From Sunxiuqinia indica (lineage in GTDB: Bacteria; Bacteroidota; Bacteroidia; Bacteroidales; Prolixibacteraceae), in assembly GCF_009847015.1 (NCBI RefSeq), contig NZ_WVEM01000022.1:1-37614 (forward strand): 37,614 bases of DNA. Direction: 5' to 3'. The position numbers and the translations under genes were made by a program. Position 1 is the stretch's first letter. Every line of letters starts with the position of its first letter. This document shows, one piece after another, positions 1,048 to 32,859 of this stretch. Under the pieces are notes generated by a model. That model was not told the origin of the DNA. It did not search any database and saw only the letters and a list, made by a program, of their open reading frames with translations.

Positions 1048-1402
1048 GTGCTAAATATTGCGTTCCGTCCGTAACTGTTTCCAGGATCCGGGCAAAAGCA
1101 ATGGCTTTCCTGAAAGAGAGTTGATCACAAAAAGGGAACAAAATTTCATTGTCCCATCACTGCACAGCTACAGTGCTAAATCTCGTTTGTATATAAATAA
1201 TCCCGAATCCTCCCCCCTTTTAGCCTATTTTGACCCTCCTCTATTCTTGAGATAGTTCGTTAATTTGTCCATTATTTCTGAGACGTAATCTTGAAAACGC
1301 AGAAAAACAAAAAATTGAAAATTAAACACGATTTTAAATTACTGGATTAAAATATACACGACTAAATTCAATATACAGTATAAAAATGAGCGTTATAAAC
1401 TT
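1048..1402. other. Intergenic region with operon promoter and paired C-tracts
   Basis: This 355-bp stretch has no convincing gene. A 65-codon open frame at 1058-1255 lacks an ATG start and any recognisable motif. The stretch holds the C-tract pair at 1211-1240 (separate entry). Downstream are weak Bacteroidota-type promoter matches: CTTG at 1245-1248 with TATTTCTG at 1273-1280, or TTTG at 1264-1267 with TAATCTTG at 1286-1293. The 5' leader to the ATG at 1403 would be about 100-120 nt and AT-rich. Confidence 0.5.
1211..1240 (+). promoter_or_regulatory. Candidate HTCS operator A: paired C-tracts upstream of exbB-like operon
   Basis: CCCCCC at 1212-1217 and CCCTCC at 1234-1239 are separated by 16 bp, and each is followed by T. 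The same arrangement stands upstream of the first SusC gene and of the MG2-plug gene. Tandem repeats about two helical turns apart are what a dimeric AraC-type HTH would be expected to recognise. Operator function is inferred. Confidence 0.5.
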
Positions 1403-2833
1403 ATGAAAACAAGAATGATGATCAATCGAAAAAAAAACAGTTTAATGTTTGCAGTTACTATGTTAATATCTGCATTTTTGCTTTTAAACTCGCATGTTTC
1501 TGCACAAAACAACAAAAAAGCAGAGAATGGTTCGAAATTGGAAATATTCAGCAACAAGCTGCCGGCTGGAGCAAAATGGGTCGGCGATAAAAATTTTGTG
1601 CGCGAAGGTGGAATCAAAATACAGGGAACCTTTGATAATTACATATATCTTCAGTCATCAGACAGTCTCGCCAAAATAGCCGGTTTGTCAATTCCAATTC
1701 GCGAAAATCCGGGTCCTGGAGAGTATCGCTATTTGACCTTTGCCTGGATTAAATGGGGAGGGGGACAGGTTGGAATTCAACTTGGCCATCAATTGTCTTC
1801 GACGTTTCCCAACCAATCTGGCAAAAAATATAATTATACGTATGTTGCCGGTGAAGGAAATGTGATAAGTGAAGGCTACGTGTTAAGCGAAGAGATCCCG
1901 GGCAATTGGATTATTACTACCCGCGACCTTTGGAAAGACTTTGGTGATTTCACCCTAACAAGTGTATCATTTCTTTGTCCCACTCCGCGGGATGCCGGGT
2001 TCGATGGAATTGTACTTGGCACAACAGAAGATACGTTCGCTTTTGCTCCAGGTGTTCTTCCGAGCGAAGTGGCAGATCCGGTTGCCGTTAGCGGGGATGA
2101 TGAAGTGGCACTTAGTGGTACCTCCATAGCAGAGAGCTCAGAACAGCCACAAGGCGTACAAATTGACTGGGCAGCCCAAGTAAAAGCCGGAGGATTTATG
2201 ATGTATCCGTTGTATTTGATGGGTCTTTTGACAATTGTAATAGCCCTTCAACGAATAATGACCTCGCGCCAATCACGTTTAGCGCCCAAACCGCTTCGTT
2301 CATCTGTACGGGAGTACCTGAAAAAAGGAGATTTTGCAGGAGCAATTGATGCTTGTGAAAAGTACCCATCCACTCTAGCCGAATCACTTCGGTTTATTTT
2401 TAAACACCGAAATGCCGGGCGAGAAGTAGTAAGTCAGACTGCCGGAGATATAGCGGGGCGCGACATTCGAGAGCATTTGTCAAGCATTTACCCGCTTTCG
2501 GTTATCGCCTCACTATCACCTCTATTGGGACTGCTTGGCACTATTGTCGGAATGATTGAAGCCTTTGGACTAGTAGCTCTTTATGGCGACGAAGGTGGTG
2601 CTGCGATCCTTTCCGACTCAATCTCGAAGGCATTGATCACAACGGCTGCAGGTTTAATTATTGCTGCTCCGTCAGTAGCTATCTATTTTGTCCTTAAAAA
2701 ACGTATTATGGGACTGGCTTCAACTATTGAGGTAGAAATTGAAAATGTCATTACAGACATTTATTTAAATGATGAATCGCCTGAAGTAGCGAGTCCAAAA
2801 CACCAGGAGGATTGCCATGCGCCTGTCTTATGA
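1403..2833 (+). CDS. ExbB/TolQ/MotA-family proton channel with N-terminal periplasmic jelly-roll-like domain
   Basis: A 476-residue protein. Residues 1-34 form a signal peptide (cleavage near HVSA-Q). Residues about 45-210 form a periplasmic beta-rich domain with aromatic patches (YRYLTFAWIKWGGGQVG) ending FDGIVLG, like galactose-binding/LamG-type folds. A linker of about 40 residues follows. The MotA/TolQ/ExbB domain has transmembrane segments near 264-284, 364-387 (LSPLLGLLGTIVGMIEAF, the family signature) and 409-430. ExbB proteins are normally about 230 residues, so the N-terminal half is a fusion. ExbB forms the pentameric inner-membrane channel that, with ExbD, turns the proton gradient into mechanical work on an outer-membrane partner. 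The gene overlaps the next exbD-like gene by 17 nt. The ATG at 1403 gives a complete signal peptide. The C-tract pair lies about 160 bp upstream. The domain's ligand is unknown. Confidence 0.88.
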   Translation: MKTRMMINRKKNSLMFAVTMLISAFLLLNSHVSAQNNKKAENGSKLEIFSNKLPAGAKWVGDKNFVREGGIKIQGTFDNYIYLQSSDSLAKIAGLSIPIRENPGPGEYRYLTFAWIKWGGGQVGIQLGHQLSSTFPNQSGKKYNYTYVAGEGNVISEGYVLSEEIPGNWIITTRDLWKDFGDFTLTSVSFLCPTPRDAGFDGIVLGTTEDTFAFAPGVLPSEVADPVAVSGDDEVALSGTSIAESSEQPQGVQIDWAAQVKAGGFMMYPLYLMGLLTIVIALQRIMTSRQSRLAPKPLRSSVREYLKKGDFAGAIDACEKYPSTLAESLRFIFKHRNAGREVVSQTAGDIAGRDIREHLSSIYPLSVIASLSPLLGLLGTIVGMIEAFGLVALYGDEGGAAILSDSISKALITTAAGLIIAAPSVAIYFVLKKRIMGLASTIEVEIENVITDIYLNDESPEVASPKHQEDCHAPVL

Positions 2834-3281
2834 TGACGATGATAAGGTTGATGTTCAAATGTCGCCGCTGATCGACTGTGTTTTTCTGCTCCTCATCTTT
2901 TTCCTGGTAACCACTATGATGAAAAAGTGGGAAATGCAGATTCCTCTGTCGCTGCCACCAATGACATCAAGTTTGTCAACGACGAGGTCAGGTCAGGATG
3001 CCGTGATTATTGCCGTGGATGAGAACAAAAATCTGTACCAGGTGCTGAACCACGACGCTTATAACGGGCGTAATGACTATGTACAGATTGATGACCTAAC
3101 CGTTTTTCTTAACAGTTTAAAAAATAGCGAAGGGGCGGATATAACCATTGATGTTGCCGCCTATCGGGCGGTTTCGGTCAAATCGGTGATTGATGTATTC
3201 GATAAATGTCAACTACAAGGATTCACACGTACGCGAGTACGATTAGGAAGCAAACCATATGAACTTACCGTTACAGAATAA
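2817..3281 (+). CDS. ExbD/TolR-family biopolymer transport protein (first copy)
   Basis: A 154-residue protein with the ExbD layout: a short cytoplasmic N-terminus, one membrane segment (about residues 16-36, MSPLIDCVFLLLIFFLV) and a periplasmic domain. The Asp in PLID (residue 20) matches the essential proton-carrying Asp of ExbD/TolR. It should assemble inside the ExbB pentamer. Its start lies inside the end of the exbB-like gene (17-nt overlap), which implies translational coupling. The periplasmic part is slightly longer than usual and ends LGSKPYELTVTE. It is followed, again with overlap, by a second ExbD-type gene. Confidence 0.9.
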   Translation: MRLSYDDDDKVDVQMSPLIDCVFLLLIFFLVTTMMKKWEMQIPLSLPPMTSSLSTTRSGQDAVIIAVDENKNLYQVLNHDAYNGRNDYVQIDDLTVFLNSLKNSEGADITIDVAAYRAVSVKSVIDVFDKCQLQGFTRTRVRLGSKPYELTVTE

Positions 3282-3684
3282 CGAAGACGAACCGGAAGTA
3301 TCTATGTCGCCATTGATCGACTGTGTCTTCCTGTTATTAATTTTCTTCCTGGTCTCAACCATGACCAAGGTGAAGAACAGAGATATCCCAATTGATTTAC
3401 CGACTTCGGAATCGGCAATCAAGCTAAAACCAGACGACAAACAGGCGATCGTTGGATTAGACAACGATGGTAACTTTTACTGGGATGGTCAACCCTGTTC
3501 TACTAATTTTATGCTTGAGCAATTAAGAACAATCTGCATAACAACTCCAGACCGTCGCATCCGAATCGATATGGACAAGGGTACTCCATTTGGCCGCTTT
3601 GTTGAGGTCATGGATGCATGTCAGTTTTACAACCTTAGTAATATAGGGATACGAACTTATGATGAAAACTACAACAAAAACTAG
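3259..3684 (+). CDS. ExbD/TolR-family biopolymer transport protein (second copy)
   Basis: A 141-residue ExbD-type protein with the same membrane segment as its neighbour (MSPLIDCVFLLLIFFLVSTM, about residues 16-35), including the conserved Asp. The periplasmic domain differs clearly from the first copy. The two are therefore old paralogues rather than a recent duplication, and they may form the ExbD heterodimer thought to sit inside one ExbB pentamer. The gene overlaps the first exbD-like gene by 23 nt and the next gene by 26 nt. Double ExbD genes are common in Bacteroidota and Planctomycetota Exb loci. Confidence 0.9.
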   Translation: MNLPLQNNEDEPEVSMSPLIDCVFLLLIFFLVSTMTKVKNRDIPIDLPTSESAIKLKPDDKQAIVGLDNDGNFYWDGQPCSTNFMLEQLRTICITTPDRRIRIDMDKGTPFGRFVEVMDACQFYNLSNIGIRTYDENYNKN

Positions 3685-5194
3685 CAGAACTGCAGTAATT
3701 CTTTCGTGGGCGATCGCATTGATCGGTTGCATTGGGTTGGTGCTGTTCCTTTGGCTTTTGCCAACACCTGAAAAGGGAGCAATGAGGCTTCAGGACAAAT
3801 ATAATCGACCAGTTCGCAATGTTGGTCGTAGAATTAAGAAGGAACAGTCGCAGCGAGCCCTTCCACCTGACTATGCCCGGCAACTCGTTAAGCAGTCTGA
3901 AGTACTTATTAAAAAGGATCTTGAGACTCGGCTGAAAAAATTTCAGGAGATGTCTGAAAAGATGAGGCAGCGAAAAGATGGGCTGCTGGAGCAAGTTGAA
4001 AAAAGACAACTGCCACCTTCGGCACCGGACGATGCTAATAATACTTCAGTAGCACGCAATATTCCGCGAGCGGGAAGTCCACCGCTTGCCTCGAATCCTA
4101 CTGTTAAGGATTTGTATGACATGCTAAAGCAATATGAAGTTGAAATTCAGAGAAGCCATCTTGCTTCCATTGCTGCAAAACAATCCCTATCAAAGGGGCT
4201 TTCCTTTCCTGAAGTGTATAATTCGTTGCAATTAGGATCGTCGTTTATGCCCGATTTTGATGAGCTGATTCGCAATCAGACCAACGGACAAGACTGGAAT
4301 CGCTCTTTGAGCAGCAACACCAGCGGTGATCTAGAGATTAACAACACGGCAGATCTGAATAATTACCGGGGTTTGCTTGGCCAAACTTCCCGGCAGGCAG
4401 GGTTGGCCGGAGCACGTCTGGAAAGTTTATTCGGCGTTCCAAACCCCGGCGGCAAAAAACCAGACGGAGGCTCCAACTATCCTGGAGAAGGTAGTGGAAG
4501 CGGGGACGGCGGAATGGAGGTGAATTTCTCGAATACCGGTAGCAAAACTCCAATGAGCCATTATCAGGGTGGCCGACTGGATCAGGAAATGGTAAAAGCA
4601 CAAGCCCTTTCTGGACGGCGTGTCACGAAACAAGCAGAGCGTAAAGGGTGGTTGTACATTAACACCTGGTATATGATTGGACCTTGGGAAAATTATGGTC
4701 GCGATGACTTTGCAATCGTTCATCCACCAGAAATTTCGATTGACTTTGATGCTGTTTATACCGACGGACAGGTAGGCCAAGGAACTGCAGAAACCGATTC
4801 TGATCCATTGAAGATGATAGGTGAAGAGGTTGAGCTGGATGGAACCCTTCGGTGGAATTTTATGCAAAGCGAGTCAATGCATAACACGGTTCCTGTTACT
4901 ACTGGACATTCAACTTACTACGCTTACACTGAATTGTATTTTGATGAGCCAGCAACTATGTTGGTGGCTATTGGAACCGATGACAGCGGGCGCGTTTGGA
5001 TTAATGGGAAGGATGTTTGGCAAGACAGGGGGACCAGCTGGTACTACATTGACGAAAGTATGACCCTTTTCCAATTTCGGCAGGGGTGGAACAGGGTTCT
5101 TGTCCGCTTGGAAAACAGCGGAGGAGGACCTGCAGGCTTTAGTCTTTTGATTTGTCCACCTGAAGCTGTAAGTAGTGACAAACTTGACAAATAA
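3659..5194 (+). CDS. Single-pass inner-membrane protein with coiled coil, Gly-rich linker and C-terminal PA14/jelly-roll-like domain
   Basis: A 511-residue protein. It has one uncleaved membrane segment (about residues 12-34, AVILSWAIALIGCIGLVLFL), a charged helical/coiled-coil region (about 70-118), a low-complexity region with a Gly-rich linker (about 263-287), and a C-terminal beta-rich domain (about 328-500). That domain carries WYMIGPWENYG, DDSGRVWINGKDVW and GWNRVLVRLENSGGG, a pattern of PA14-like carbohydrate-binding modules. The topology (short N-terminus inside, one helix, long periplasmic arm, C-terminal domain) is that of TonB, and the gene occupies the position TonB often takes after exbB-exbD. 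No TonB C-terminal domain is visible. It overlaps the second exbD-like gene by 26 nt, so it is very likely part of the same complex. A role as a periplasmic transducer or sensor is inference. Confidence 0.75.
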   Translation: MMKTTTKTSRTAVILSWAIALIGCIGLVLFLWLLPTPEKGAMRLQDKYNRPVRNVGRRIKKEQSQRALPPDYARQLVKQSEVLIKKDLETRLKKFQEMSEKMRQRKDGLLEQVEKRQLPPSAPDDANNTSVARNIPRAGSPPLASNPTVKDLYDMLKQYEVEIQRSHLASIAAKQSLSKGLSFPEVYNSLQLGSSFMPDFDELIRNQTNGQDWNRSLSSNTSGDLEINNTADLNNYRGLLGQTSRQAGLAGARLESLFGVPNPGGKKPDGGSNYPGEGSGSGDGGMEVNFSNTGSKTPMSHYQGGRLDQEMVKAQALSGRRVTKQAERKGWLYINTWYMIGPWENYGRDDFAIVHPPEISIDFDAVYTDGQVGQGTAETDSDPLKMIGEEVELDGTLRWNFMQSESMHNTVPVTTGHSTYYAYTELYFDEPATMLVAIGTDDSGRVWINGKDVWQDRGTSWYYIDESMTLFQFRQGWNRVLVRLENSGGGPAGFSLLICPPEAVSSDKLDK

Positions 5195-5197
5195 GCC

Positions 5198-8506: not shown

Positions 8507-8540
8507 TTACCCCCCCTTATCTTATTGATTTGTCCCCCCT
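8507..8540 (+). promoter_or_regulatory. Candidate HTCS operator B: paired C-tracts upstream of the first SusC gene
   Basis: TTACCCCCCC (C-run 8510-8516) and TTGTCCCCCC (C-run 8534-8539) form a direct repeat with a 23-bp period. Each C-run is followed by T, and 17 bp separate the runs. It ends 8 bp before a candidate -33 element (TTTG, 8548-8551), the position expected for a class of activator that contacts RNA polymerase. It shares its layout with sites at 1211-1240 and 32597-32629. Confidence 0.6.
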
Positions 8541-8547: not shown

Positions 8548-8583
8548 TTTGAAATGCACTTATTTTGATGCGAAATAAATTTG
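8548..8583 (+). promoter_or_regulatory. Candidate Bacteroidota promoter of the SusCD operon
   Basis: TTTG at 8548-8551 and TAAATTTG at 8576-8583 match the -33 and -7 elements (TTTG and TAnnTTTG) of the primary sigma factor of Bacteroidota. The spacing is 24 bp, slightly long. Transcription would start near 8590. That excludes the in-frame ATGs at 8565 and 8568 as starts and favours the one at 8616. Confidence 0.5.
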
Positions 8584-8615: not shown

Positions 8616-11600
8616 ATGAAAAAAAGATTTCACTGGCTTATCTATGTTTGTTTTACTTTACAAGGCCTATTCATTTCACCTTGGATTTGGGGAAACAACC
8701 ATTACAAAGTCATAGCTCAAACATCTCCTGGTTTTACTGGATATCAATTTGTGCAAGAATTGGATTCTGTATCATCTTTAAGATCCGAGAAGTTAGATAC
8801 TATAGTTCTTTACAATAAGAATGGACACAGGGGAATAGACTTGAATCGTAATTCGTTTTTACTTAGTGGTGAAAAACTGGATTATTCTACTCGGATTCTA
8901 CCTCCATTTATCTCTGTACAGCAGCTATTAAAAGGGAATGCTTCGGGTGTATTTATACAGGAAACCAGTGGGGAGCCTGGAGCTAGCCAAAATATTTTTA
9001 TGCGGGGGATTTCCAGTCCGTTATTTCTACAGAAGGACGTACGGGGATCGCAACCAGTTGTTTATTTAAACGGAATACCATTAACTCAAAACAATCCATT
9101 TGTTTTTGACATTCAGCAATACGATTTGAACCCCATAGGGCCGGCTACTAATCTGTTGTCGACTATAGATATTAATAATATCGAATCAATTGAGGTTATT
9201 ACCAATCCTGCGGATTTGGCGAGATTGGGTCCACTAGCGGCCAATGGTGCGATCTGGATTATTACCAAAAATGGTGATTCCCGTAAGACGGAGGTAGAAA
9301 TTAACACCTATGTAGGAATGGTTACTGCTCCGGGGTATATTAATCCGGCAAATGGGGTCTATGAAAAGAGCTTTCGTAATAAATTTTTTGACCAATATGA
9401 TATTACGGAAAGCGACCGCTCGTTTCCTGATTATCTGAAAGATGAAACTAACCCTGATTATTTTGGTGATTCCAGGTGGTCAGATGAATATTATCGAAAT
9501 GCCCCAAAATATAATATGAATGTTGCTGTAACCAGTGGAGCAGAACGTGCTAATTTTCGTTTTGTTGCAGGTTATACCGGAGATGCCGGAAATGCTGATA
9601 AAACCTCTCTTCAAAAAGTGAATGTTAGTCTTTTTGTGAATATGACCCCCTTGAAAGGGGTTGAGCTAAATTATATGTTGAGTGGTTCATCAACGACAAG
9701 AGATCGCAACCGGAATTTTGTTGATCGGTTAGCTGAAATGGAATATTTACCGGATTTGTCAACTCCAATTGGTTCGTCAATAAATGCGTATAAAAAATTC
9801 ACAGATTTCTATCAAGAAGCGTTGGATGATAATACCACCAATGTCATTCGAGGTTATATCAATTTAAACGCGAATCGAGGGAATTTTAACTTTGGAACTA
9901 ATTTGTCTTTTGATTACGTTGATAATGTTCGGGGGGTATTCTACCCTTCAACAATTCTCGAATCAGTTAATTATGTGTCAAACTATAGTGGCTACAACCA
10001 ACGTGTTATTTGGAACAACCATTTTAGATATTATCCTAAACTCAATGAAAAGCATAGATTGAATTTGGAGTTAACGTCATCGCTTACTAATGATACTTAT
10101 CATTATAATTATGCACGGGCGTTCGATGGTCCGAATGATTATAATAAAAGTAGCAGTAGCGGCAATTACGTAATGTATCGGTATATTGACAAAGAGAATT
10201 CGCGCTTGATGTCATTCGCCGGAATCGTTGATTATTCCTATAACAATATTTTTGATCTGGGTTTAACACTTCGTTATGATGGCACTTCGGAAGTACAACC
10301 TGACCACAGGTGGTTGTTTACGCCCAGTGTTGGTGCAACATGGAACCTTAAAAATCATTTCCTGAACCATTCTAAAACACTGTCGGATTTGAATATTGGT
10401 GTTTCCTGGTCCCGATTGACAAAGCTGCTGTACACCAATCAATATTCCATTGGGCCACAGTATACTTCAATGGAGCTAAGTTGGGAGGATGAAACCATTA
10501 TTCCGTCGTATAGTGGGTTTGCCTCTATTACAAGACCATACACAAAGGGCTGGATAGGCTACGATATGGGATGGCCTTATGCCGATTGTTTAAACTTGGT
10601 GTTGAAGGCCGGCTTATGGGATAATCGTTTGAGCTTTAAAATGAGTGTGTTTAATCGTGAGAACAAAGATATGGTGGTTCGCATAGCAGTTCCTCAGGAA
10701 TTGGGCTATAAAGATCAGTTTAGCAGCGGAATGCAGGTAAACAACCGTGGTATTGAACTGAATATTGGCAGTTCAATTTTGTCAAATCGCAACGGATTAA
10801 ACTGGGATGCTGATTTTAACATTACATACGTTGATAATAAATTAAAGAAATTGCCAAATGGATTAACCCAACTAGCAATAGATGATCGATTATTAATGGT
10901 AGGGCGATCGATTGATCAATTCTGGGTACTTAAGAATGAAGGTATTTACAACGATGCCAGTGAAATTCCTATTAATTCAAACGGAAAACTTCTAAGTACA
11001 GATGGCATTAGCTTTAGTGTTGGTGACCCGAACTGGTCAGACATGGATGGGAACGGTGTGATTGATTCTGACGATAAAATATTAAAAGGACATTCAACCC
11101 CACCTATTTACGGAGGGCTATACAATCGATTCCGATATCGGCGTTTTGACCTGAATTTTCACCTGTTCTTTGCAGCCGGGCACGATGCTTTAAATGTTCG
11201 TTCATCTCAACGGTATGATTTTATGACCCTGGATAATGAAAATTCGTTGAAAGCTGTTAAGGAAATTTTCTTTTGGCAATACACAAACGATAAAAATAAT
11301 TATCCAATTTACAATCCTTTAAGTGAAGTTCACCCCTATCGTCAGGATCAGGATATTTTTCTGGAAAGTCTTTCTTACGTCAAGTTAAGAACGGTATCGT
11401 TGGGGTACAACTTTAAATTATTCAACAAAAAGAAGTCTGACAAGAATAATGCATATCTCTATTTTGTTGCTAATAACCTGCTAACATTTACTGATTTTAG
11501 TGGTGATGATCCTGAATTGGTAAACTTTAACGGGTATTACACCGGGTATTCTTTACCTATCCCGAGATCTTTTGTAATGGGCTTTAAATTTACATTGTAA
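8616..11600 (+). CDS. SusC/RagA-family TonB-dependent outer-membrane transporter (first)
   Basis: A 994-residue TonB-dependent receptor of the SusC type. It imports oligosaccharides or glycopeptides across the outer membrane together with the SusD lipoprotein encoded next. After the signal peptide (MKKRFHWLIYVCFTLQGLF) comes a short region of about 75 residues. The plug follows (about residues 75-230; SVQQLLKGNASGVFIQETSG, IFMRGISS, NIESIEVITNPAD, NGAIWIITKNG), and then the 22-stranded barrel with the late SusC motif SYVKLRTVSLGYNF. It ends VMGFKFTL. Unlike the second SusC here, it lacks a recognisable carboxypeptidase-regulatory-like domain before the plug. I chose the ATG at 8616 because it gives a clean signal peptide and lies downstream of the predicted transcription start. 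SusD follows after 15 bp. Confidence 0.9.
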   Translation: MKKRFHWLIYVCFTLQGLFISPWIWGNNHYKVIAQTSPGFTGYQFVQELDSVSSLRSEKLDTIVLYNKNGHRGIDLNRNSFLLSGEKLDYSTRILPPFISVQQLLKGNASGVFIQETSGEPGASQNIFMRGISSPLFLQKDVRGSQPVVYLNGIPLTQNNPFVFDIQQYDLNPIGPATNLLSTIDINNIESIEVITNPADLARLGPLAANGAIWIITKNGDSRKTEVEINTYVGMVTAPGYINPANGVYEKSFRNKFFDQYDITESDRSFPDYLKDETNPDYFGDSRWSDEYYRNAPKYNMNVAVTSGAERANFRFVAGYTGDAGNADKTSLQKVNVSLFVNMTPLKGVELNYMLSGSSTTRDRNRNFVDRLAEMEYLPDLSTPIGSSINAYKKFTDFYQEALDDNTTNVIRGYINLNANRGNFNFGTNLSFDYVDNVRGVFYPSTILESVNYVSNYSGYNQRVIWNNHFRYYPKLNEKHRLNLELTSSLTNDTYHYNYARAFDGPNDYNKSSSSGNYVMYRYIDKENSRLMSFAGIVDYSYNNIFDLGLTLRYDGTSEVQPDHRWLFTPSVGATWNLKNHFLNHSKTLSDLNIGVSWSRLTKLLYTNQYSIGPQYTSMELSWEDETIIPSYSGFASITRPYTKGWIGYDMGWPYADCLNLVLKAGLWDNRLSFKMSVFNRENKDMVVRIAVPQELGYKDQFSSGMQVNNRGIELNIGSSILSNRNGLNWDADFNITYVDNKLKKLPNGLTQLAIDDRLLMVGRSIDQFWVLKNEGIYNDASEIPINSNGKLLSTDGISFSVGDPNWSDMDGNGVIDSDDKILKGHSTPPIYGGLYNRFRYRRFDLNFHLFFAAGHDALNVRSSQRYDFMTLDNENSLKAVKEIFFWQYTNDKNNYPIYNPLSEVHPYRQDQDIFLESLSYVKLRTVSLGYNFKLFNKKKSDKNNAYLYFVANNLLTFTDFSGDDPELVNFNGYYTGYSLPIPRSFVMGFKFTL

Positions 11601-11615
11601 TAACTGTGAAATAGT

Positions 11616-13169
11616 ATGAATAAAAATGTATTACATAAATTAAGCATCTCAGGGTTACTAAGTTTCCTGTTGATGATTGGATTGACTATCAGCCTGAGTT
11701 CGTGTGACAACTTCTTGGATGAAAGTCAAGTTAACAATGCTGCTGCTGAGACACAGCAATGGAATACTTTTGCAGATGTACGTAGCGCATTTATGGGGGT
11801 TTACGGGTTAACCCGTACCGCTTTGGCTGAGAATAATTCGCATTGGGTTTTCGGTGAATTGCGTTCCGGTGATTTTGCTTCCTATGAACGTAAAGATCTG
11901 AAGTCAGTAATAAATAATGACTTAGGTGGGGCAAGCAAGCTAATACAAAAATTGTCCAACTGGCGCCGGTTTTATGCTGCAATTAATGCGGCAGCTGTTT
12001 TTATTGAGAATGCTCCACAGGTCGCCGAAAAAGACATTAAATACTCTGAAATAAATCTGAATTATGATATCTCGCAGGTTCGAGCATTAAGAGCTTTCCT
12101 GTATTTCTATATGGCTCGGGTCTGGGGCGATGTTCCATTAGTCACAAATTCATATGATAACGGAACATTTCCTGAGTTTGCACAGTCATCAGCGACAACA
12201 GTTTTAAATTATGCTGAAAGTGAATTGAGAGCGGTGATCGATGATTTACCATTTCGTTACGGGGTATCGCCACAGAGCTATTACGGACAGAATGATGATT
12301 ATTGGCAAGGTGAATTGTTTACAAATGTTTCAGCAACAGTAGTTTTAGCTCACATTGCAGCATGGAAGGGAAATTATACAGATGTTGATGCCTACACCTC
12401 TTATATACTGAATAATTTGGAGCAAGTTGATGCTACTTATACTTTAGTTGAAGATTTGACTTCTCCTACAGGTTTATTTTCTGTAAAAAGCGGTTCCAAA
12501 TTATTGGGATTCAGTTTTGGTTTTGAAAATCGAGAAACATCTGAATCCGGGCATATCGAGGATTTGACACTAGCTTATCCGATAGTGCAAAAATCTTATC
12601 CTGATGTTTATGTCCCGATGGACACGATTCTAACAATGTTTCCTGAGACCACTGATTTGCGATTTGGTATGGATACTGTAAGCATGCGTTATCGTTCAAA
12701 CTATTTCTACGATATCAATATGCCTGTTCCTATTTTTAGTAAAATACAGGTAGTTAAGGATGGACAAAGTAACGGTGATTATGGAATTTTTGCTTCAGCA
12801 CTTATTTTTAGCCGTCCTGAAGAGATTGCGCTATTGCGAAGTGAGGCATTAGTCGTTTTAAATTATCCTGAAGATGCTCTATCGATCCTTAACGCACTCC
12901 GTTCTACCAGAGGCTTACGTGTTCTTCGGTATTCCGAAGACTTAAATGATGACAAGCTGGTGTTATTGAAAGAAATTTTTAATGAAAGAAGGCGTGAATT
13001 GATCGGTGAAGGTTGGCGGTGGTACGATCAGGTCAGATATCAGAAAATTGTGGGTGACAACCCTGAGTTAATGGCATTAATTCAGTATGGAGGGATATAT
13101 TGGCCCGTCGCTCAGGATGTCTTGAGAAGTAACTCTCTTTTGGTTCAAAATAGTTATTGGCAAAATTAA
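11616..13169 (+). CDS. SusD/RagB-family surface glycan-binding lipoprotein (first)
   Basis: A 517-residue lipoprotein with signal peptide and lipobox ending LSSC (Cys about residue 30), then DNFLDESQ, the usual N-terminus of SusD proteins. TPR-type helices carry the motif RALRAFLYFYMARVWGDVPLV (about residues 153-173). The C-terminal region has LLRSEALV, LNALRSTRGL and NERRRELIGEGWRWYDQVRY, all typical of the RagB/SusD C-terminus. SusD caps the SusC barrel as a hinged lid and binds the glycan ligand at the surface. Its position directly after SusC defines the first SusCD pair. The ligand cannot be told from sequence. Confidence 0.93.
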   Translation: MNKNVLHKLSISGLLSFLLMIGLTISLSSCDNFLDESQVNNAAAETQQWNTFADVRSAFMGVYGLTRTALAENNSHWVFGELRSGDFASYERKDLKSVINNDLGGASKLIQKLSNWRRFYAAINAAAVFIENAPQVAEKDIKYSEINLNYDISQVRALRAFLYFYMARVWGDVPLVTNSYDNGTFPEFAQSSATTVLNYAESELRAVIDDLPFRYGVSPQSYYGQNDDYWQGELFTNVSATVVLAHIAAWKGNYTDVDAYTSYILNNLEQVDATYTLVEDLTSPTGLFSVKSGSKLLGFSFGFENRETSESGHIEDLTLAYPIVQKSYPDVYVPMDTILTMFPETTDLRFGMDTVSMRYRSNYFYDINMPVPIFSKIQVVKDGQSNGDYGIFASALIFSRPEEIALLRSEALVVLNYPEDALSILNALRSTRGLRVLRYSEDLNDDKLVLLKEIFNERRRELIGEGWRWYDQVRYQKIVGDNPELMALIQYGGIYWPVAQDVLRSNSLLVQNSYWQN

Positions 13170-13189
13170 AAGTTTGAAAATTTAAACTT

Positions 13190-23996: not shown

Positions 23997-24246
23997 TAGT
24001 TATTTTTTCTGTAATAAAAGCGATGAAACGAGTGAGTTGTATCAACCTTTTCGTACAAAGGAAAATATTCAGACCGGAGTTCTTTACAGTAATACAAAGT
24101 ACTTTTGTATACAGATGGAAAGACCTTGAACAAAATTTTGCACACACATTTGGTTTTCTGAAAAGTTCCATCGTATTAATATACAAAAAATGAAGAAATA
24201 CAGTTTGATCCGAAATTTGCAGAACGTTAATTTGAAAAATAAACAG

Positions 24247-26382
24247 ATGAAAATAAAAAATAATTTTCTCGAAATTTTATTCATCGGAATCCTGACAGGT
24301 CTCTCCATAATGGGATGTGATGTCAGTTATAACTATGACTTTAAAGACGGTTACGATGACTATGTTTTTGACAGTGATAGTGTTACTATTGATACTCTTA
24401 CAGGTATTGATCAAAGCATGTTGGCTAAAGCTTTTATTTTCCCGGGTTTGGTTGGCGATAATGAGCGAAGGATACAAGATACTGTTATTCGTTTGGATCT
24501 GAGTTATAAATATGTAAGTCCCCGCAAACTAAATATCACAATGGTCCCTGAGCCAATTTACAGCACTGGTTTATATGCCGGACCTGGTGAGCTTATTGAA
24601 ATATCCGTTCCGGCTGGGGTCATGGGACTGAGTGTTCAGATCGGATCTCAGATGGACGATTTGTCTGATATAAATCCAGCAAAACGTGAACCCATAATAT
24701 ATACCCGTAAAGCATTAAATCCGGGAACAAACACGATCCGCAATCCGATGGGGGGGTATATTTGGATTCGTAGGCCAAAAGAATACGGGGTAAGTCAACA
24801 GGTTGATTTACAGGTAAAAGGGGCTTGTCGTGCTCCTGACTACATTGCCGGACAAACAATTCCGACGGACTGGAAGAATGAGATTTTAAACTCGAAGGTT
24901 CCTTGGCTTGAGCTTCGTTCTCAGCGAATTGCTTTCACTGTGTCACGTAGTTGGATGGTTGCCAAGATGGTAAATAACCCCAATTTTGCGAATGAGGTTG
25001 CAGCTGTAATCAATATGTGGGATGAATCTATTTCCCTTGATTTTAACTATTTCTTTGGGTTAAATGATTTGGACGAAGAGCTGGAGTACCGTGCTCCGGA
25101 ATTTCCTTTTAGAGTAATTTTAGATGCTCAGTTACAAAATTCTGAATTTATTCATTGGGAAAGTCAGCCCATTGTCGCGATGAACTCCGAATATTGGGTG
25201 GATGAGTTAACCGATCTGAGCGGCTTTCGGAATGGTAAATCATGGGGAATTTATTCTGTCCTGGGAAACAATTTCGACCCGCTTGCTACGCCTTGGTGGA
25301 CTAGTATCAGCCAAGCTGCTACAAAATTGCCACTGTACAAATCGGTTGAGAGGAATCGTGAAGATAAAACCAATATGCCACCGTTGTTCACCGAAAATGG
25401 TATTGACGAACAGTTTCCGCTGGCTCTCTCTTATGCAATTGCTGACAGTAGTAAGATGATGGGGAGGGATATCGGTACATCATACGACGGTTTTATGTTA
25501 TTGCCATTGGTTCAATTAGGACATTACAGTCCTGGAGGTATTCAGGATTGGTCTTTCTATAACTATTTGTTTGGTGAAGGGAGGAGTGAACTTACTTCCA
25601 ATCAATGGTATAAACCACAAGATTTATTATACAAACTTCTTTGTGAGTATTATCAGAAAAATTTTGCGCAATTCTTTGATCAATGGGGGATTAATATTGG
25701 AGATAACGTGAGAGTGGAAATGGATAATAAGTTCGGATTTCTCGATGTTGCTTTATGGCGCTATGATCCGGTTAAAGAAACTTATTCTGGAGGAAATGAT
25801 GTTGATATATCCAATTATCGTTATCGTGATGCTCGTACTAATTGGACGGTTACGGTTTATGATGCTGAAGGTAATTTCAGTGATCAGGAAGATCAGGGAC
25901 AAGGAATCCGGAACCTAATTGACGGTGACATGGACTCTTATTGGCACACAACCTGGCAAAATCTTTCCAAACCTCGTCAGCTTCCATTTACACTTTATTT
26001 TGATATGCAGCAAGAGAATGTGGTGGACGGTTTCTATTTGGCAGATGGAACGCGTAAGTATCGTCCTCGTAAACTGATTATTTATACAACAGATGATGAG
26101 CCTTATTCAGGGACAATATGGACACCGTTGGATACGATTTTCCCCGCCTATGACAACCCGGTAAATGGCGGATTGAAGCCCAATATCCGTAACCTACAGT
26201 TTTTTGATTTAGCTAATCGTTCAACCTTCAGGTATTTCAAAGTTGTCATACCCGAGCCCTCTTTTGATTCTGAGGTTAGCAAAGATGGAGTAGATGTCAT
26301 GTGGATGCCCGGTGATGCCATTGATCCGAATGTTTATTACCACCAAACAATTGACGAGTTCGGTACCTACCATTACAAGTAA
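24247..26382 (+). CDS. M60/enhancin-like lipoprotein with F5/8-type C domain, HExxH motif lost
   Basis: A lipoprotein of about 711 residues. The ATG at 24247 gives a signal ending SIMGC, while the ATG at 24190 adds 19 polar residues. Numbered from 24190, residues about 130-200 match the M60 N-terminal beta domain (SVPAGVMGLSVQIGS, NPGTNTIRNPMGGYIWI), and 230-340 the domain leading to the active site. Where M60 peptidases have WGxxHExGHN, this reads WGIYSVLGNN (352-361), so both zinc-binding His and the catalytic Glu are gone. A C-terminal F5/8-type C (CBM32-like) domain follows (about 560-700, NLIDGDMDSYWHTTWQ, FYLADGTRKYRPRKL). M60 enzymes cut mucin-type glycoproteins. This one probably only binds. 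The 250 bp before it contain TACTTTTG at 24100-24107, a possible internal -7 box. Confidence 0.75.
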   Translation: MKIKNNFLEILFIGILTGLSIMGCDVSYNYDFKDGYDDYVFDSDSVTIDTLTGIDQSMLAKAFIFPGLVGDNERRIQDTVIRLDLSYKYVSPRKLNITMVPEPIYSTGLYAGPGELIEISVPAGVMGLSVQIGSQMDDLSDINPAKREPIIYTRKALNPGTNTIRNPMGGYIWIRRPKEYGVSQQVDLQVKGACRAPDYIAGQTIPTDWKNEILNSKVPWLELRSQRIAFTVSRSWMVAKMVNNPNFANEVAAVINMWDESISLDFNYFFGLNDLDEELEYRAPEFPFRVILDAQLQNSEFIHWESQPIVAMNSEYWVDELTDLSGFRNGKSWGIYSVLGNNFDPLATPWWTSISQAATKLPLYKSVERNREDKTNMPPLFTENGIDEQFPLALSYAIADSSKMMGRDIGTSYDGFMLLPLVQLGHYSPGGIQDWSFYNYLFGEGRSELTSNQWYKPQDLLYKLLCEYYQKNFAQFFDQWGINIGDNVRVEMDNKFGFLDVALWRYDPVKETYSGGNDVDISNYRYRDARTNWTVTVYDAEGNFSDQEDQGQGIRNLIDGDMDSYWHTTWQNLSKPRQLPFTLYFDMQQENVVDGFYLADGTRKYRPRKLIIYTTDDEPYSGTIWTPLDTIFPAYDNPVNGGLKPNIRNLQFFDLANRSTFRYFKVVIPEPSFDSEVSKDGVDVMWMPGDAIDPNVYYHQTIDEFGTYHYK

Positions 26383-26412
26383 AATCTAATTACAACCTAA
26401 TTTTAATTAACA

Positions 26413-28152
26413 ATGAGATACAAAATAAATCGCGATATTGCCATTCTGGTATTTACCATTGCTCTGGTGGGAACGATCTTTACTTCATGCGAGAAATATG
26501 ATACTCCAGCATCAATACGAGAAAGCCTGGAGGACGAAGGCCAGGATACTTCAATTGTCCGAAAAGTACTTTTAATTAATGTTGATGGTGGGGTGGGGCA
26601 ACTTGTAAAAGAAATAATGCCTCAAAATATTGCTTCTTTATTACCCAAAAGTAAATATAGCTTTGACGGATATTGTGCCGTAGCAGAGGGTGAGCGTAAT
26701 AGTGGAGAGGAAGAGCCTGTTAGCTGGGCGAGTATGTTGACTGGAGTTTTAAACGTGAAGCATAAAATAAAAAATAACACTTACATTCCTGTTGTTTCAA
26801 TGACTCCGGATGCTCCTGATGTTGTAATTGATTATTATCCAACATTACTTTATCGGATTCGTAATAACGATCCGTTAGCTCGAACAATTTGCATTACACC
26901 ATGGCAGGCATTGAATGACCGTTTCTTAGGAGATGCCAATAAAACCATCACTAGTATTTCTGATGAAGCATCAAAAGACTCTACTGTTTTCAGTTTGCAA
27001 AACGATGATTATGTTTTTACCATGGCTAGTTTTAAAGGGGCATTGGAAGTAGGTAAAACAAATGGATTTAAGATAACCAATGCCGATTATATATCACAAA
27101 TTGAAACCATCGATGGATATATTGGTGAGATAATTGATGCCGTTAAATCCCGGGAAACTTATGAAAAAGAAGATTGGCTGATTATCATTACATCGACTAA
27201 TGGCGGAACCCCTGAAGGCAGTTATGGTGGAACAAGTGATGAAGAGAGAAATACATTTACCATCTTCCATTACATGAATTTCAACGAACGGGAATTAAAT
27301 GGCACGTTTATAACTTCGCCACGTTTTACGGGTGATATAGCCGGAAATGTATCTGACCCTGAACAACGTTATGCGTTAACTCCGACTGATACCATGACCA
27401 TTGAAATGATTTTTAAAGTTAATGCTCGGGAGGATGACGGGTCTTTCGGTTATGGTAATTGGATAAAGGTAATGGGAAAACAGAATTGGGGTTTTTTCCA
27501 GAAGTGGTCAACTTTGAATTTTAGATGCGAATCCAATACCGGAGTCACAATAGAGCGAGGAGTTACCGGCTTCGATGATGGGCTTTGGCATTCATTCGCG
27601 GTTTCATCTTATTTTAATCAGCAAAAAGAAGCAAGAACTTTCAAACTTTATTATGATGGGAGCCTAACGTATACGGGCGATTATGATTTGGATATGAATG
27701 CATCTGCTGTCGATACCGCTGATTTGCAAATGGGGGGATTATCTGATATTGACTTTAATGCGGCCGTTGTTCGTATTTGGGATACGGTTTTAAATGAATA
27801 CGAATTTGATCAGAATGCATGTTTGTTGGAAATGACCTCAACACATCCCAATTATGATCGTTTAATTGGCTATTGGAATTTGTTGGATCAGGGGGCAATT
27901 AGAAATGACACTGTTCTGGCTAGTCCAATTTCAGGAATCCCCGATATGTATATAACCGGGCAGCCGTTAACTTATAGTAAGAGTGCCAATACATTGGCTT
28001 GTCATTTTGCCGATGATGATATTGTAGTGGAAAGTGAGACGATTGCTCCTCAGATATTTTATTGGCTGAATATCAATCCATCAAGTGACTGGAGACTTGA
28101 TCGACCTGAATTTCTGTCAAAATATGATCTGGAAATTTATCGGCCTGAATAG
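26413..28152 (+). CDS. Second alkaline-phosphatase-fold lipoprotein with LamG domain, catalytic residues missing
   Basis: A 579-residue lipoprotein with lipobox FTSC (Cys 26), paralogous to the protein at 22215-23996 and with the same domain order. The phosphatase-like part keeps VLLINVDGG (Asp 58) and VSWASMLTG. Glu 101 stands at the expected nucleophile position, the DDxDHxGH-type stretch reads FKGALEVGK (about 207-215), and SDHGG reads STNGG (261-265). The LamG-like part covers about 330-480 (TIEMIFKVNARE, DGLWHSFAVSS, FKLYYDGSL), and a DUF4983-like C-terminus follows (PQIFYWLNINPSSDWRLDRP). It is the last gene of the operon and is followed after about 60 bp by a strong hairpin terminator. 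It is likely a surface binding protein rather than an esterase. Confidence 0.75.
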   Translation: MRYKINRDIAILVFTIALVGTIFTSCEKYDTPASIRESLEDEGQDTSIVRKVLLINVDGGVGQLVKEIMPQNIASLLPKSKYSFDGYCAVAEGERNSGEEEPVSWASMLTGVLNVKHKIKNNTYIPVVSMTPDAPDVVIDYYPTLLYRIRNNDPLARTICITPWQALNDRFLGDANKTITSISDEASKDSTVFSLQNDDYVFTMASFKGALEVGKTNGFKITNADYISQIETIDGYIGEIIDAVKSRETYEKEDWLIIITSTNGGTPEGSYGGTSDEERNTFTIFHYMNFNERELNGTFITSPRFTGDIAGNVSDPEQRYALTPTDTMTIEMIFKVNAREDDGSFGYGNWIKVMGKQNWGFFQKWSTLNFRCESNTGVTIERGVTGFDDGLWHSFAVSSYFNQQKEARTFKLYYDGSLTYTGDYDLDMNASAVDTADLQMGGLSDIDFNAAVVRIWDTVLNEYEFDQNACLLEMTSTHPNYDRLIGYWNLLDQGAIRNDTVLASPISGIPDMYITGQPLTYSKSANTLACHFADDDIVVESETIAPQIFYWLNINPSSDWRLDRPEFLSKYDLEIYRPE

Positions 28153-28458: not shown

Positions 28459-31400
28459 ATGTCAAAAGTAATTCGTTATATTGTTACCTTATTAATTCTT
28501 CAATTTATAATGGTTGAATCATTTTCAATGGATATTGATAATGATTTTAAGATAGATTATAAGGGAATTGAAGATGGCTTGTCAAATAATTCTGTTACGT
28601 CAATTTATCAGGATGATAAGGGTTTTATTTGGATTGGGACTTTTGACGGTTTGAACCGTTTTGATGGCTATGATTTTAAGTTGTTTCGAAATCAACCAGG
28701 TGATGATATGAGCCTGATTCATAACCGAATCGTTAGTATTTCAGGAACTGGCGATGAAATTTGGGTGGGAACTAAAAAAGGATTAAGTATTTACAATTTT
28801 CATACGGGAACTTTTTTAAAAGCAACGTACAAGGATAATAAGAGCACTGAACAAACCATTTTAAGTTATCCGGTAAACGAAGTGTATAGCCATAAGGGAA
28901 AAGTGTACATTGGGACAGCAGGCAAAGGGCTATTGGTTAGTGATGGAGATAAAGGAAATTGTGAGAGAGTTCCATTGGGACGGGATAACGAGATAAGCTG
29001 GGATTATCACGTTCAGGGAATTGATTTTGCTGTAGATGGAGTACTTTGGTGTTTTGTGCAGGGTGAAGGAATCGCGAAATTCGATGAAACTTCCAAAAGG
29101 CTAAAAATAATCTATTCTGCGGTAAAGAGCGGGCGTTGTATGACTTTTGATGATGAAGATAATTTATGGGTTGGTCTGGACAACGGTTTGTTAAAATATA
29201 ATATAAAGGAAGATTCTAGTTTTATTTTCTCTCATAAAGAAGTACGTTTTCAATATACAAGTATTATCTATCTCGAGGATAGACAACAAATCTGGGCTTC
29301 AACGGACGGGAATGGAATTATAGGATTCAATCTGAATGAAAAAAAATTCTTCACAATAACAAAGGATAATACAAATAACGGCTTGTCGAGTAACTCGATT
29401 TACTGCATGTTTCAGGATAAGGATAAGAGAATATGGTTAGGTACAATTAGAGGTGGGATAAATACAGTTGAAGAGCAAAACGAAATGTTCCAAACTGTTG
29501 CTATAAATGAGAAAGGATCTGGAGAGTCACTTTCAAATAATTATATTTCTGCGTTTTGTGAGCAAGATGAAAACAATGTTTGGATAGGGACCGACGGAAG
29601 TGGGTTATACCTTTGGAACATGAAGCAGAACACGTACACAAATTATTCTAATAATCCTAAAAAGCTCCGATCGTTACCGAGCAACTTCATTACCAATATA
29701 AAAAAAGAGCCCACAGGACTTTGGGTTGCGACCTATGGCGGTGGAATTTGTCGTTTTGATGAAAAGACTCATAATTTTATCCGTTATAGTCTTTTTGATG
29801 ATAAGCATAATGTTAATCATCTAAATATTTGGACACTTTTTGTTGACTCCAAGCATGTTTTATGGGCAGGTTCATCTGATCAGCCCGGAATTTTTAAATA
29901 CAATCAAGAAACCGATTCGTTTGAATATCTCGATGTGCCTTTCATCGGAATTTTGTCCATCAAAGATGATCAACTTAACGATCTATGGGTGGGAACCTTC
30001 AGCGAATTGAGCCGGTTCAATTCAGAAACGATGGATATTAAAAGTTTTAAAATGGATTATCCGGTACGGTCAATTGTGCCGATTAACAAGAACGCGATCC
30101 TTATTGGTACTGAAGGGGGGGGACTAATCAAATTAGACCCTGTTACCGGAGAGCAAAGGGTTTTTATTGAGAAAGACGGACTTTGCAATAACTCTGTTCT
30201 TAACATTATAAAAGATGATAATGACTTTTATTGGTTGAGTACATACAACGGAATATCAAGATTTGATATTAGAACAGAGCAATTTGTTAACTACTATGAT
30301 TCAGACGGTCTTCAAAGTAATCAGTTCTCCTATAACGCTGGATTAATGCTTACTTCAGGAAAAATATTGTTGGGAGGAATAAAAGGATTTAATATTGTCA
30401 ATCCTGGTGTTACTACGACAAAAGCTAAATTCCCAAATCTCTTAATCACTCAGATAAGCGTCAATAATGTTAACATTGAAAAGAGTGGAAAATCTGCTTT
30501 AACAATTCACCGGCTCAAACTTCCAAGTGATCGTTCGATGTTAACCATCAATTATGTCGGAGTTGAATATTCTAAACCGAATAAGATCTTGTATGCCTAT
30601 TATTTGGATGGTTGGGATTTTGAATGGCATTATGTTGGTAAATCCAGAGTCGCAAATTATTCGAAATTGACAGAGGGAAATTATACATTAAAAATTAAGT
30701 CAACGAACGCTGATGGAACGTGGCGTGATGATTATCTTGAACTTCCTATTATAATTACCCCTCCATGGTACAGATCAAAATTAGCTTATTTTTTCTATTT
30801 GGTCTTTGTTGTTGGTGTTATTTATATGATATACAGCTATAAAAAGAAGCAGAATCTGTTGAGGTATGAGATTCGGCTTTCTGAAGAAAAAATAAAATAT
30901 GAACAAGAGTTGAGTGAAAAGAAGCTTAACTTTTTTACAACAGTTTCGCATGAGTTTAGACTTCCGTTAACTATGATTATCAATCCATTAAAGGATATGT
31001 TGTATGGAGGGAAGATTGAGCCTGGAGCAATAAGCATGGCTTATCGGAGTTCACGTCGCTTGCTCAATATGGTTGATCAACTGTTAATGTTCAGAAAGAT
31101 CGAAAGTGAGAGAAACAAAATGAACATCCGTAAGTTGGACATTATTGAGCTTTGTAACGAAGTTTATTCTAGCTTTATCCATCTGGCAAACAGTAAGGAT
31201 GTCGATTATCGGTTTTTTACTTCAATTGAACGTGAATATATATATGCTGATCGTCAGAAAATGGAGATTTGTTTACATAACTTAATCTCCAATGCTTTTA
31301 AGTATACCGATGTTAAGGGAGGTCGGGTAATATTGAAAGTTAAACAAAATCAGAATCCTGATGAACTAATTATACAGGTGTCCGATAATGGTATTGGAGT

Positions 31401-32565
31401 CAAAGATGATGATAAAGAAATGATATTTAATTTATTCTACCAATCGCATCAAAGCGGTAGTAACGAATTACGTGAGAAAGGTTTTGGTATCGGTTTGTAT
31501 ATTGTCGAAATGTATGTAAAGCAACATCATGGAGTGGTTCGCTGTTATGATAATGGAACAGGCGGTTCAATCTTTGAGATTCGTCTGAAGATGGGAAAAG
31601 AACATTTTGCTGGTTTTCCAATTGATGAAGAAGCTTCTGAAGGATCTAATTTCGAAAAAGTAAGATTGAACCTACAGCAGGAGCAAGCAGCGGAGAATCA
31701 GGAGATATTTGATGAAAGCGAAGATATGGGAGCAGAGAATCAAATGAATGTGAAGAGTGATCTAATTTTGGATCGTAGGTACATTCTGCTGATCGATAAT
31801 GATCTTCAATCGATCAATTTCATGAAAAAAATTCTTTTTGATCAATACATCATCACGGAAGCGTTAACGGCACAGGATGCTCTGGCACAGATAAAACAAA
31901 AACACCCTGATCTGATTGTTTCAGATGTCTTATTAAAAGACATGAACGGTGTTGATTTGTGTAGAAGCTTGAAAGAAGATTCGGAAACACAGCACATTCC
32001 GGTCATACTGCTTACAGCTGCAATTTCTGAAGAGATCAAATTAAAAGGAATTGAAGTTGGCGCTGATGATTACCTAACCAAACCCTTTGATCAAGATTAT
32101 CTGAAGGCCAAAATTAATGGGATATTTAAACGTCGGGAAGTAATGCAGGATAGACTTCTGAAAATTGTCACGTTGAATTCTGCTGATTTTAAGCTATCGG
32201 ATCAGGATAAGGAATTTTTGGATCAGATTGTTGAAATTGTCGAAAATGCCCCGGAAAAGTTCAATATAACGAAGTTATCTTCGGAGCTTGGCATGAGCCA
32301 TTCCCTATTGTATAAAAAGGTAAAGCAGTTAACGGGAAAAACAGTTATCGAGTTCGTCCGATTTATCCGGTTGCGCATGGTAGCTGTAAACCTTATAACC
32401 ATGGACGTACAAATTAATCAAGCAGCTTTAGCTGCCGGGTTTAATGATCTCAAATATTTCCGTAAACATTTTCAATCTCAATATGGGATGAGTCCTTCGG
32501 CATTTCAGAAAAAATATAAAAGCAGCTTACAGGACAAACAATACATTTTGAAGGATAGTTTTTAG
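28459..32565 (+). CDS. Hybrid two-component system regulator (HTCS)
   Basis: A 1368-residue one-protein two-component system. A signal peptide (about 1-23) leads to a periplasmic sensor of two-component propeller repeats (about 30-650, with recurring WIGTFDGLNRFDGY / VWIGTDGSGLYLW type units) and a Y_Y_Y domain (about 700-770). One membrane helix follows (about 776-794), then HisKA (SHEFRLPLT, phospho-His 831), HATPase (NLISNAFKYT; SDNGIG; GFGIGLYIVEMY), a receiver (phospho-Asp 1156 in VSDVLLKDMNG; Lys 1208 in TKPF), and an AraC-type double HTH at the C-terminus (about 1265-1355). HTCS proteins bind oligosaccharide in the periplasm and activate the adjacent SusCD operon. All signalling residues are present. 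It has its own -7 box and stands between two of the genes it probably controls. Confidence 0.93.
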   Translation: MSKVIRYIVTLLILQFIMVESFSMDIDNDFKIDYKGIEDGLSNNSVTSIYQDDKGFIWIGTFDGLNRFDGYDFKLFRNQPGDDMSLIHNRIVSISGTGDEIWVGTKKGLSIYNFHTGTFLKATYKDNKSTEQTILSYPVNEVYSHKGKVYIGTAGKGLLVSDGDKGNCERVPLGRDNEISWDYHVQGIDFAVDGVLWCFVQGEGIAKFDETSKRLKIIYSAVKSGRCMTFDDEDNLWVGLDNGLLKYNIKEDSSFIFSHKEVRFQYTSIIYLEDRQQIWASTDGNGIIGFNLNEKKFFTITKDNTNNGLSSNSIYCMFQDKDKRIWLGTIRGGINTVEEQNEMFQTVAINEKGSGESLSNNYISAFCEQDENNVWIGTDGSGLYLWNMKQNTYTNYSNNPKKLRSLPSNFITNIKKEPTGLWVATYGGGICRFDEKTHNFIRYSLFDDKHNVNHLNIWTLFVDSKHVLWAGSSDQPGIFKYNQETDSFEYLDVPFIGILSIKDDQLNDLWVGTFSELSRFNSETMDIKSFKMDYPVRSIVPINKNAILIGTEGGGLIKLDPVTGEQRVFIEKDGLCNNSVLNIIKDDNDFYWLSTYNGISRFDIRTEQFVNYYDSDGLQSNQFSYNAGLMLTSGKILLGGIKGFNIVNPGVTTTKAKFPNLLITQISVNNVNIEKSGKSALTIHRLKLPSDRSMLTINYVGVEYSKPNKILYAYYLDGWDFEWHYVGKSRVANYSKLTEGNYTLKIKSTNADGTWRDDYLELPIIITPPWYRSKLAYFFYLVFVVGVIYMIYSYKKKQNLLRYEIRLSEEKIKYEQELSEKKLNFFTTVSHEFRLPLTMIINPLKDMLYGGKIEPGAISMAYRSSRRLLNMVDQLLMFRKIESERNKMNIRKLDIIELCNEVYSSFIHLANSKDVDYRFFTSIEREYIYADRQKMEICLHNLISNAFKYTDVKGGRVILKVKQNQNPDELIIQVSDNGIGVKDDDKEMIFNLFYQSHQSGSNELREKGFGIGLYIVEMYVKQHHGVVRCYDNGTGGSIFEIRLKMGKEHFAGFPIDEEASEGSNFEKVRLNLQQEQAAENQEIFDESEDMGAENQMNVKSDLILDRRYILLIDNDLQSINFMKKILFDQYIITEALTAQDALAQIKQKHPDLIVSDVLLKDMNGVDLCRSLKEDSETQHIPVILLTAAISEEIKLKGIEVGADDYLTKPFDQDYLKAKINGIFKRREVMQDRLLKIVTLNSADFKLSDQDKEFLDQIVEIVENAPEKFNITKLSSELGMSHSLLYKKVKQLTGKTVIEFVRFIRLRMVAVNLITMDVQINQAALAAGFNDLKYFRKHFQSQYGMSPSAFQKKYKSSLQDKQYILKDSF

Positions 32566-32859
32566 ATGAAATGTGGATAAACTGCATAAAAGATAATTAC
32601 CCCCCCCTAAATTACGATTATTACCTCCTTTCGATAAAACAAATTTTAATAATTTCGAAATTATTGAAGCTGCTAATCGTTTTGACGGATGAGCATGTCT
32701 TATTTGTATTGGCTGCTGAAATTTAGATTTTGTGATCCCTGTTCTGGTGCTTCCTTCTGAATATTAGTATGGAAAAGACGTTGTGCCAACATTTTGATCA
32801 CATTAATTTGGTATTTAGGGATAATACAGAAAATTAAACAAGACTCTAAAATTATCTTT
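32566..32859. other. Intergenic region upstream of the MG2-plug gene
   Basis: 294 bp without a gene. It contains operator candidate C (32597-32629). I do not see a convincing TAnnTTTG/TTTG promoter pair or a strong terminator for the regulator gene here. An in-frame upstream extension of the next ORF (from 32794) lacks a good start and is treated as leader. Confidence 0.4.
32597..32629 (+). promoter_or_regulatory. Candidate HTCS operator C: paired C-tracts upstream of the MG2-plug gene
   Basis: TTACCCCCCCC (C-run 32600-32607) and TTACCTCCT (C-run 32624-32628) are separated by 16 bp, and each C-run is followed by T. Both halves begin TTAC. The layout matches sites A and B. It lies about 230 bp before the ATG, farther than at the other two genes. 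Confidence 0.5.

Follow-up and report, generated by a model that had tools for sequence, protein, structure and literature searches.

Paired runs of C precede three groups of genes in the 37,614-nucleotide stretch analysed here (the window): an operon for an ExbB-ExbD energiser (Exb operon), a polysaccharide utilisation-type locus (PUL) beginning with a SusC gene, and a gene for an MG2-like protein. The locus raises the question of whether these C-tracts are the operators of one regulator, the HTCS encoded at 28459-32565, and whether an energiser of the outer membrane belongs to its regulon. From the sequence comparisons described below we regard it as highly likely that the paired C-tracts are tandem operators of this HTCS.

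Candidate operators and the genes behind them

All three sites are on the plus strand. Site A (1212..1239), upstream of the ExbB operon, consists of CCCCCC (1212-1217) and CCCTCC (1234-1239) with 16 bp between the runs. Site B (8510..8539), upstream of the first SusC gene, consists of CCCCCCC (8510-8516) and CCCCCC (8534-8539) with 17 bp between them, and site C (32600..32628), 34 bp past the stop codon of the HTCS gene, of CCCCCCCC (32600-32607) and CCTCC (32624-32628), again 16 bp apart. When the sequence was re-read, coordinates, run lengths and spacers were all as given by the original prediction, as were the T after every C-run and the first letters of the halves (TTAC and TTGT at B, TTAC twice at C). 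The ends of the two runs are 22 bp (A), 23 bp (B) and 21 bp (C) apart. The half-sites, with a consensus of about AATTtACCCCcTt and gttTTaCCCCCct, thus follow each other on one strand at a distance of ~21-23 bp, i.e. two helical turns.

Behind each pair, a Bacteroidota-type -7 box (TWNNTTYG) ends 28-29 nt past the second run: TTAATTTG of the Exb operon promoter (1260..1267, plus strand) and TTATTTTG (8560..8567, plus strand) stand 20 nt after the second run of A and B, respectively, and TAATTTCG (32650..32657, plus strand) 21 nt after that of C. The accessible text of PMC9723704 gives the sigma-A -7 consensus of F. psychrophilum as TAnnTTTG at -12 to -5. From the position of the box, the second half-site would overlap the -33 region or end shortly before it, where activators usually bind. 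A looser scan of the window found four C-rich pairs on the plus strand, three of which (A, B and C) have a -7-like box, and none on the minus strand.

Site B precedes the genes at 8616..28152 (plus strand), which encode a first SusC and SusD, a protein of 266 aa (fasciclin-like by eye), DUF5007, a second SusC and SusD, fasciclin and DUF5008, followed by phosphodiesterase/LamG, M60 peptidase and DUF4983 genes; their close spacing indicates that they probably form one operon. Pfam finds no glycoside hydrolase in this operon, for which the original prediction assumed a sugar signal. M60 peptidases act on glycoproteins, so that glycans of glycoproteins are a more likely candidate for the inducer than a simple polysaccharide would be. 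Behind site C, the gene at 32860..35484 (plus strand) had been described as an "MG2-plug gene". The MG2 domain is retained as a likeness below the curated cut-off (PF01835, 1.1e-4), and Pfam detected no plug domain at E ≤ 1e-3. When the window's PUL was compared with the loci fetched from other genomes (E ≤ 1e-4), matches were limited to SusC/SusD-type genes and to generic ExbB/ExbD matches in loci brought by the ExbB search. Further downstream, a transposase gene of the IS1634 family (35808-37352) is flanked by two perfect direct repeats of 62 bp (35675-35736 and 37379-37440), which we read as a long target duplication.

The HTCS gene itself (28459..32565, plus strand) adjoins two SusC-SusD pairs, both upstream of it. 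Its product contains Reg_prop, Y_Y_Y, HisKA, HATPase_c, receiver and AraC-type HTH_18 domains, all above the Pfam cut-off, in agreement with the AraC-type output domain proposed before. Residues 1178-1181 read QHIP; the three closest relatives from the G-numbered genomes have KHIP and many others SHIP. According to the accessible text of PMC11253607, S or C precedes HIP in the receiver of 84% of HTCSs and this motif is linked to inhibition of the DNA-binding domain. The S/C-HIP motif, absent here, is a common rather than a defining feature of HTCSs.

Rarity of the motif and recurrence beside related HTCS genes

In the host genome (5.25 Mb), the pair pattern CCCYCCN{14,19}CCYCCT has six separate matches, A, B and C among them, and its reversed control none (forward) and one (reverse). 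The composite pattern, which adds the -7 box, leaves A, B and C as the sole host matches and has a single match (G382) in 392 further genomes of the order; the reversed control of this search gave four matches. None of 300 first-order Markov resamples of one window strand contained the composite pattern. The surroundings of the other host places read in context (L192, L195 and L199) are unlike promoters of the A/B/C kind, and the remaining places were viewed as matched letters only. The motif is rare in the host genome, as the original prediction required. Both patterns were shaped on the sites themselves; a weight matrix derived from other genomes was therefore used as a more independent test.

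For this, relatives of the HTCS were required. The best-scoring other HTCS match in 140 genomes of the host family has 34% identity. A phylum sample of 395 genomes contains 15 others with relatives much closer by score (E ≤ 1e-180), the best of which are 48-49% identical and all belong to the same class and another order. Queried against a contig collection, the single HTCS sequence gave no relatives, whereas an alignment query, made from the window HTCS and 13 of 20 phylum-sample matches, did find relatives; the best 80 of 586 candidate loci were taken. Genera among these best 80 loci include Flavobacterium, Algoriphagus, Pedobacter, Chitinophaga, Mucilaginibacter and Niastella. Three of them (L133, L181 and L184) match three of the 19 loci around HTCS relatives in the G-numbered genomes (G-loci), so that the two sets overlap. 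Forty control loci were hand-picked from the HTCS matches, 38 from other genomes of the host family and two from the host; they may include basal relatives of the clade (L201).

A tree built from 89 kinase-to-HTH regions places the window HTCS in a group with ten others (support 0.95), which an eleventh sequence joins next (1.0); judged by distance, these neighbours are ten Flavobacterium and one Algoriphagus sequence. None of the 16 control HTCSs in the tree falls inside the node holding 72 clade sequences, the support of which is only 0.39. Eight of the 80 clade and 24 of the 40 control loci are not in the tree, as the ORF filter, which keeps the longest fitting ORF of a locus, missed them.

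The strict pattern is present in only 2 of the 19 G-loci, G607 (directly behind the HTCS gene) and G665. After this result, a looser criterion was set, i.e. paired C-rich 5-mers plus a TTYG box. It gave 18 sites on the HTCS strand versus 3 on the other strand of the G-loci, and 3 versus 1 in the reversed sequences; with slightly narrower spacing, the counts were 18 and 2. In non-coding DNA, 17 sites were on the HTCS strand and none on the other, distributed over 15 of the 19 loci. For the best 80 of the 586 candidate loci, 57 versus 14 sites were counted by strand (reversed, 23 versus 12) and 49 versus 9 in non-coding DNA, the latter in 45 of the 80 loci. Seven of these nine minus-strand sites are located ~190-330 bp ahead of the start of the HTCS match, toward a divergent gene. 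The 40 control loci contain nine non-coding sites in six loci, three of the sites being one tandem repeat. Expressed per 100 kb of non-coding DNA, this corresponds to 7.0 sites in the controls, compared with 16.7 and 20.2 for the G-loci and the 80 clade loci taken as two sets. The conservation beside related HTCS genes that had been anticipated thus extends to other orders in the looser form, and the strict pattern is not generally shared.

The first genes behind ten hand-chosen clade sites (of 52 rows) encode GH2, GH43, two TonB-receptor/SusC types, BNR_4, GH88, galactokinase, GH28, GH97 and GH16, so the regulators of this clade seem to act on a broad range of carbohydrate genes.

The weight matrix has three parts, one for each half-site and one for the -7 box. 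Of 58 candidate sites 2 were removed, and the remaining 56, all from genomes other than the host, served for training. On both strands of the window, the matrix ranks B (39.3), A (34.2) and C (24.1) as the top three, followed by a score of 14.9. Site C combines its low score with a start-to-start spacing of 24 bp, which exceeds that of 55 of the 56 training sites (19-23 bp). Clade loci were scored with leave-genus-out models and controls with the full model; loci titled only by family or phylum formed groups of their own, and near relatives of a scored locus may therefore in part have remained among the training sites. At a threshold of 28, sites were present in 56 of the best 80 clade loci, 2 of the 40 control loci and none of the 80 reversed sequences. 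The corresponding numbers were 65, 2 and 6 at a threshold of 24, and 73, 6 and 16 at a threshold of 20. Chance alone as the origin of the sites was ruled out by the rarity in genome and order, the resamples and the leave-genus-out scores. Within 1.58 million control positions, only two loci score over 28. L201 (G116:C1), which encodes the HTCS with the top score among other genomes of the host family, has two strong sites, one ~0.2 kb ahead of a SusC match, and L220 (G031:C10) has one just behind its HTCS gene. The motif is, therefore, not strictly private to the clade. As both are HTCS loci of the host family, the motif may predate the clade as defined.

By these comparisons, the C-tract motif is very probably the tandem operator of this HTCS clade.

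A consensus-type search detected a fourth host site outside the window (G000:C13:50746-50774, equivalent to L242:747-775). Its matrix score of 45.5 is above those of A, B and C, and a TTAATTTG box follows at the same distance as in A and B. The site precedes a gene for a 302-aa protein (lipoprotein by eye) without a Pfam family. Upstream of this gene, contig C13 carries genes for an alpha-galactosidase (Melibiase_2), GH31, GH127, GH43, GH16 and GH2; the site thus adjoins a galactoside/arabinoside-type PUL. No HTCS match was found on C13, and a search of the host genome for a comparable DNA-binding domain in another HTCS gave 38-40% identity as the next best; control in trans by the window HTCS would hence be the simplest reading. 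The proposal of one HTCS regulon with tandem operators accordingly gains support from rarity, relatives, -7 boxes and the weight matrix, and its restriction to three operons is probably too narrow, given the fourth site.

The Exb operon and alternative readings

The first gene of the Exb operon (1403..2833, plus strand) encodes an ExbB-like protein of 476 aa with an extra N-terminal region; the MotA/TolQ/ExbB domain covers residues 341-442 (PF01618, 1.5e-19). Two ExbD genes follow on the same strand (2817..3281, PF02472, 9.7e-19; 3259..3684, PF02472, 3.8e-35), and all three matches are above the cut-off. The fourth gene (3659..5194, plus strand) encodes a 511-aa protein whose translation has an N-terminal membrane helix by eye and which matches no family in Pfam or NCBIfam at E ≤ 1e-3. 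No TonB was recognised in the operon, which a TonB encoded elsewhere could serve. Neither the N-terminal region of the ExbB nor the 511-aa protein had a PDB sequence match below E 0.1. Such ExbB N-terminal regions may resemble planctomycete proteins.

A full-length relative of this ExbB was found in none of 139 other genomes of the family (E ≤ 1e-40) and none of 392 other genomes of the order (E ≤ 1e-25, at most four candidates scored per genome). Among 394 other genomes of the phylum, again with at most four candidates scored per genome, there were two partial matches (31 and 33% identity, residues 234-450); the three samples overlap. Plasmids gave partial matches only, in seven records. The host genome contains three further MotA/ExbB genes. 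Two of these copies (C11 and C35) encode ExbB proteins of 235 and 275 aa, and each has an ExbD-like neighbour by eye. Because full-length relatives are missing from the samples and the genome has further MotA/ExbB genes, the Exb operon looks additional and was perhaps acquired.

Directly behind the operon, at 5195-5700, there are frame-broken protein remains with a GH43-like start, ADPSIVEHEGKFYLYVTADP (likeness by eye). Transposase pieces flank the operon at 1-562 (rve domains at 134-562) and 5756-8343 (by eye), and insertions may have separated it from the PUL.

The strongest alternative concerns this operon. Only B and C would be HTCS operators, A being a chance or decayed C-rich stretch or belonging to another regulator, and the Exb operon would stand outside the regulon. 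The left flank of A, CGAATCCT, indeed fits the half-site less well than the left flanks of B or C. In addition, no relative of the Exb operon occurs in the loci fetched near clade HTCSs, which leaves site A without a counterpart elsewhere and thus beyond a phylogenetic check. Against this, the matrix, which never saw A, rates it as a full-quality site that is surpassed in the window by B alone; the -7 boxes of A and B are equally far from the second run, and scores of this height are confined to L201 and L220 in the control positions. We consider this alternative unlikely.

More improbable still is that another factor, which acts on many SusC-type promoters, binds the C-tracts in place of the local HTCS. 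Strong sites at two control HTCS loci would agree with such a factor, as would the fourth host site on a contig without an HTCS match. Their frequency speaks for the clade (2 of 40 loci beside other HTCSs versus 56 of the best 80 beside clade members), and the strict composite pattern in the host genome does not leave the locus of the window. Phase variation, in which slippage in the C-runs would alter the spacing of the promoter, might be suspected from runs of 6-8 C differing in length among the three sites, and this was rejected as hardly credible, as the runs of the relatives often have only 4-5 C or are interrupted by T, with flanks and spacing conserved.

We thus return to the HTCS as the regulator of all three sites: the regulon is very probably real, with one unusual member, the Exb operon. 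The HTCS would sense a periplasmic ligand and phosphorylate its own receiver, whereupon its AraC-type domains would bind both half-sites on one face of the DNA. Bound just upstream of the -33 region, it would recruit sigma-A RNA polymerase. The Exb, SusC and MG2 operons, and probably also the gene behind the fourth site on C13, would be induced together, and the Exb operon would provide extra proton-driven energisation while the two SusCD transporters are made.

Relation to known systems and significance

In the accessible text of Ravcheev et al. 2013 (PMC3878776), HTCS regulons of B. thetaiotaomicron are described with direct-repeat motifs, on average 21 bp between tandem sites, and some include distant genes. 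This is in line with the original prediction that tandem repeats about two turns apart are typical of the class. The system described here shares with those regulons a one-protein sensor kinase/regulator with an AraC-type HTH, direct repeats about two helical turns apart before susCD operons and the possibility of distant genes. It differs in the half-site core of this clade, CCCC(C/T), in the occurrence of sites near HTCS genes of genera such as Flavobacterium, Pedobacter and Chitinophaga, and in the C-tract site that precedes an Exb operon in the host genome; one of the 16 published B. thetaiotaomicron HTCS motifs may itself be C-rich. The geometry of the sites is what known HTCSs lead one to expect; new are the C-core motif, its spread with the clade and the Exb operon. 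A literature search, which covered neither figures nor supplements, listed no paper that named C-tracts as operators of an HTCS or an Exb operon under HTCS control.

Like ExbB-ExbD-TonB energiser operons, the operon in the window combines MotA/TolQ/ExbB and ExbD proteins. Unlike those, it encodes an ExbB of 476 aa with an extra N-terminal region, has two ExbD genes and no recognised TonB, and is preceded by an HTCS-type candidate operator. The accessible text of a review (PMC11658791) states that Bacteroides have many more TonB-dependent transporters than energisers; with so few energisers per transporter, one under the control of a single HTCS would be unusual. We tentatively propose, at somewhat less than even confidence, that a regulon for the uptake of glycans or glycoproteins has acquired an energiser of its own: an ExbB-ExbD-ExbD set, seemingly foreign to the order, whose ExbB is unusual and in which a fourth protein replaces TonB, set under the HTCS operator so that energisation of the outer membrane would rise only together with these SusCD transporters.

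For an HTCS clade present in several Bacteroidota orders, two C-core half-sites and a fixed -7 box constitute a testable operator code by which regulons would become readable from sequence. Energisers are usually seen as shared parts; the arrangement found here suggests that an outer-membrane energiser can also belong to, and be co-regulated with, a single locus of the polysaccharide type.
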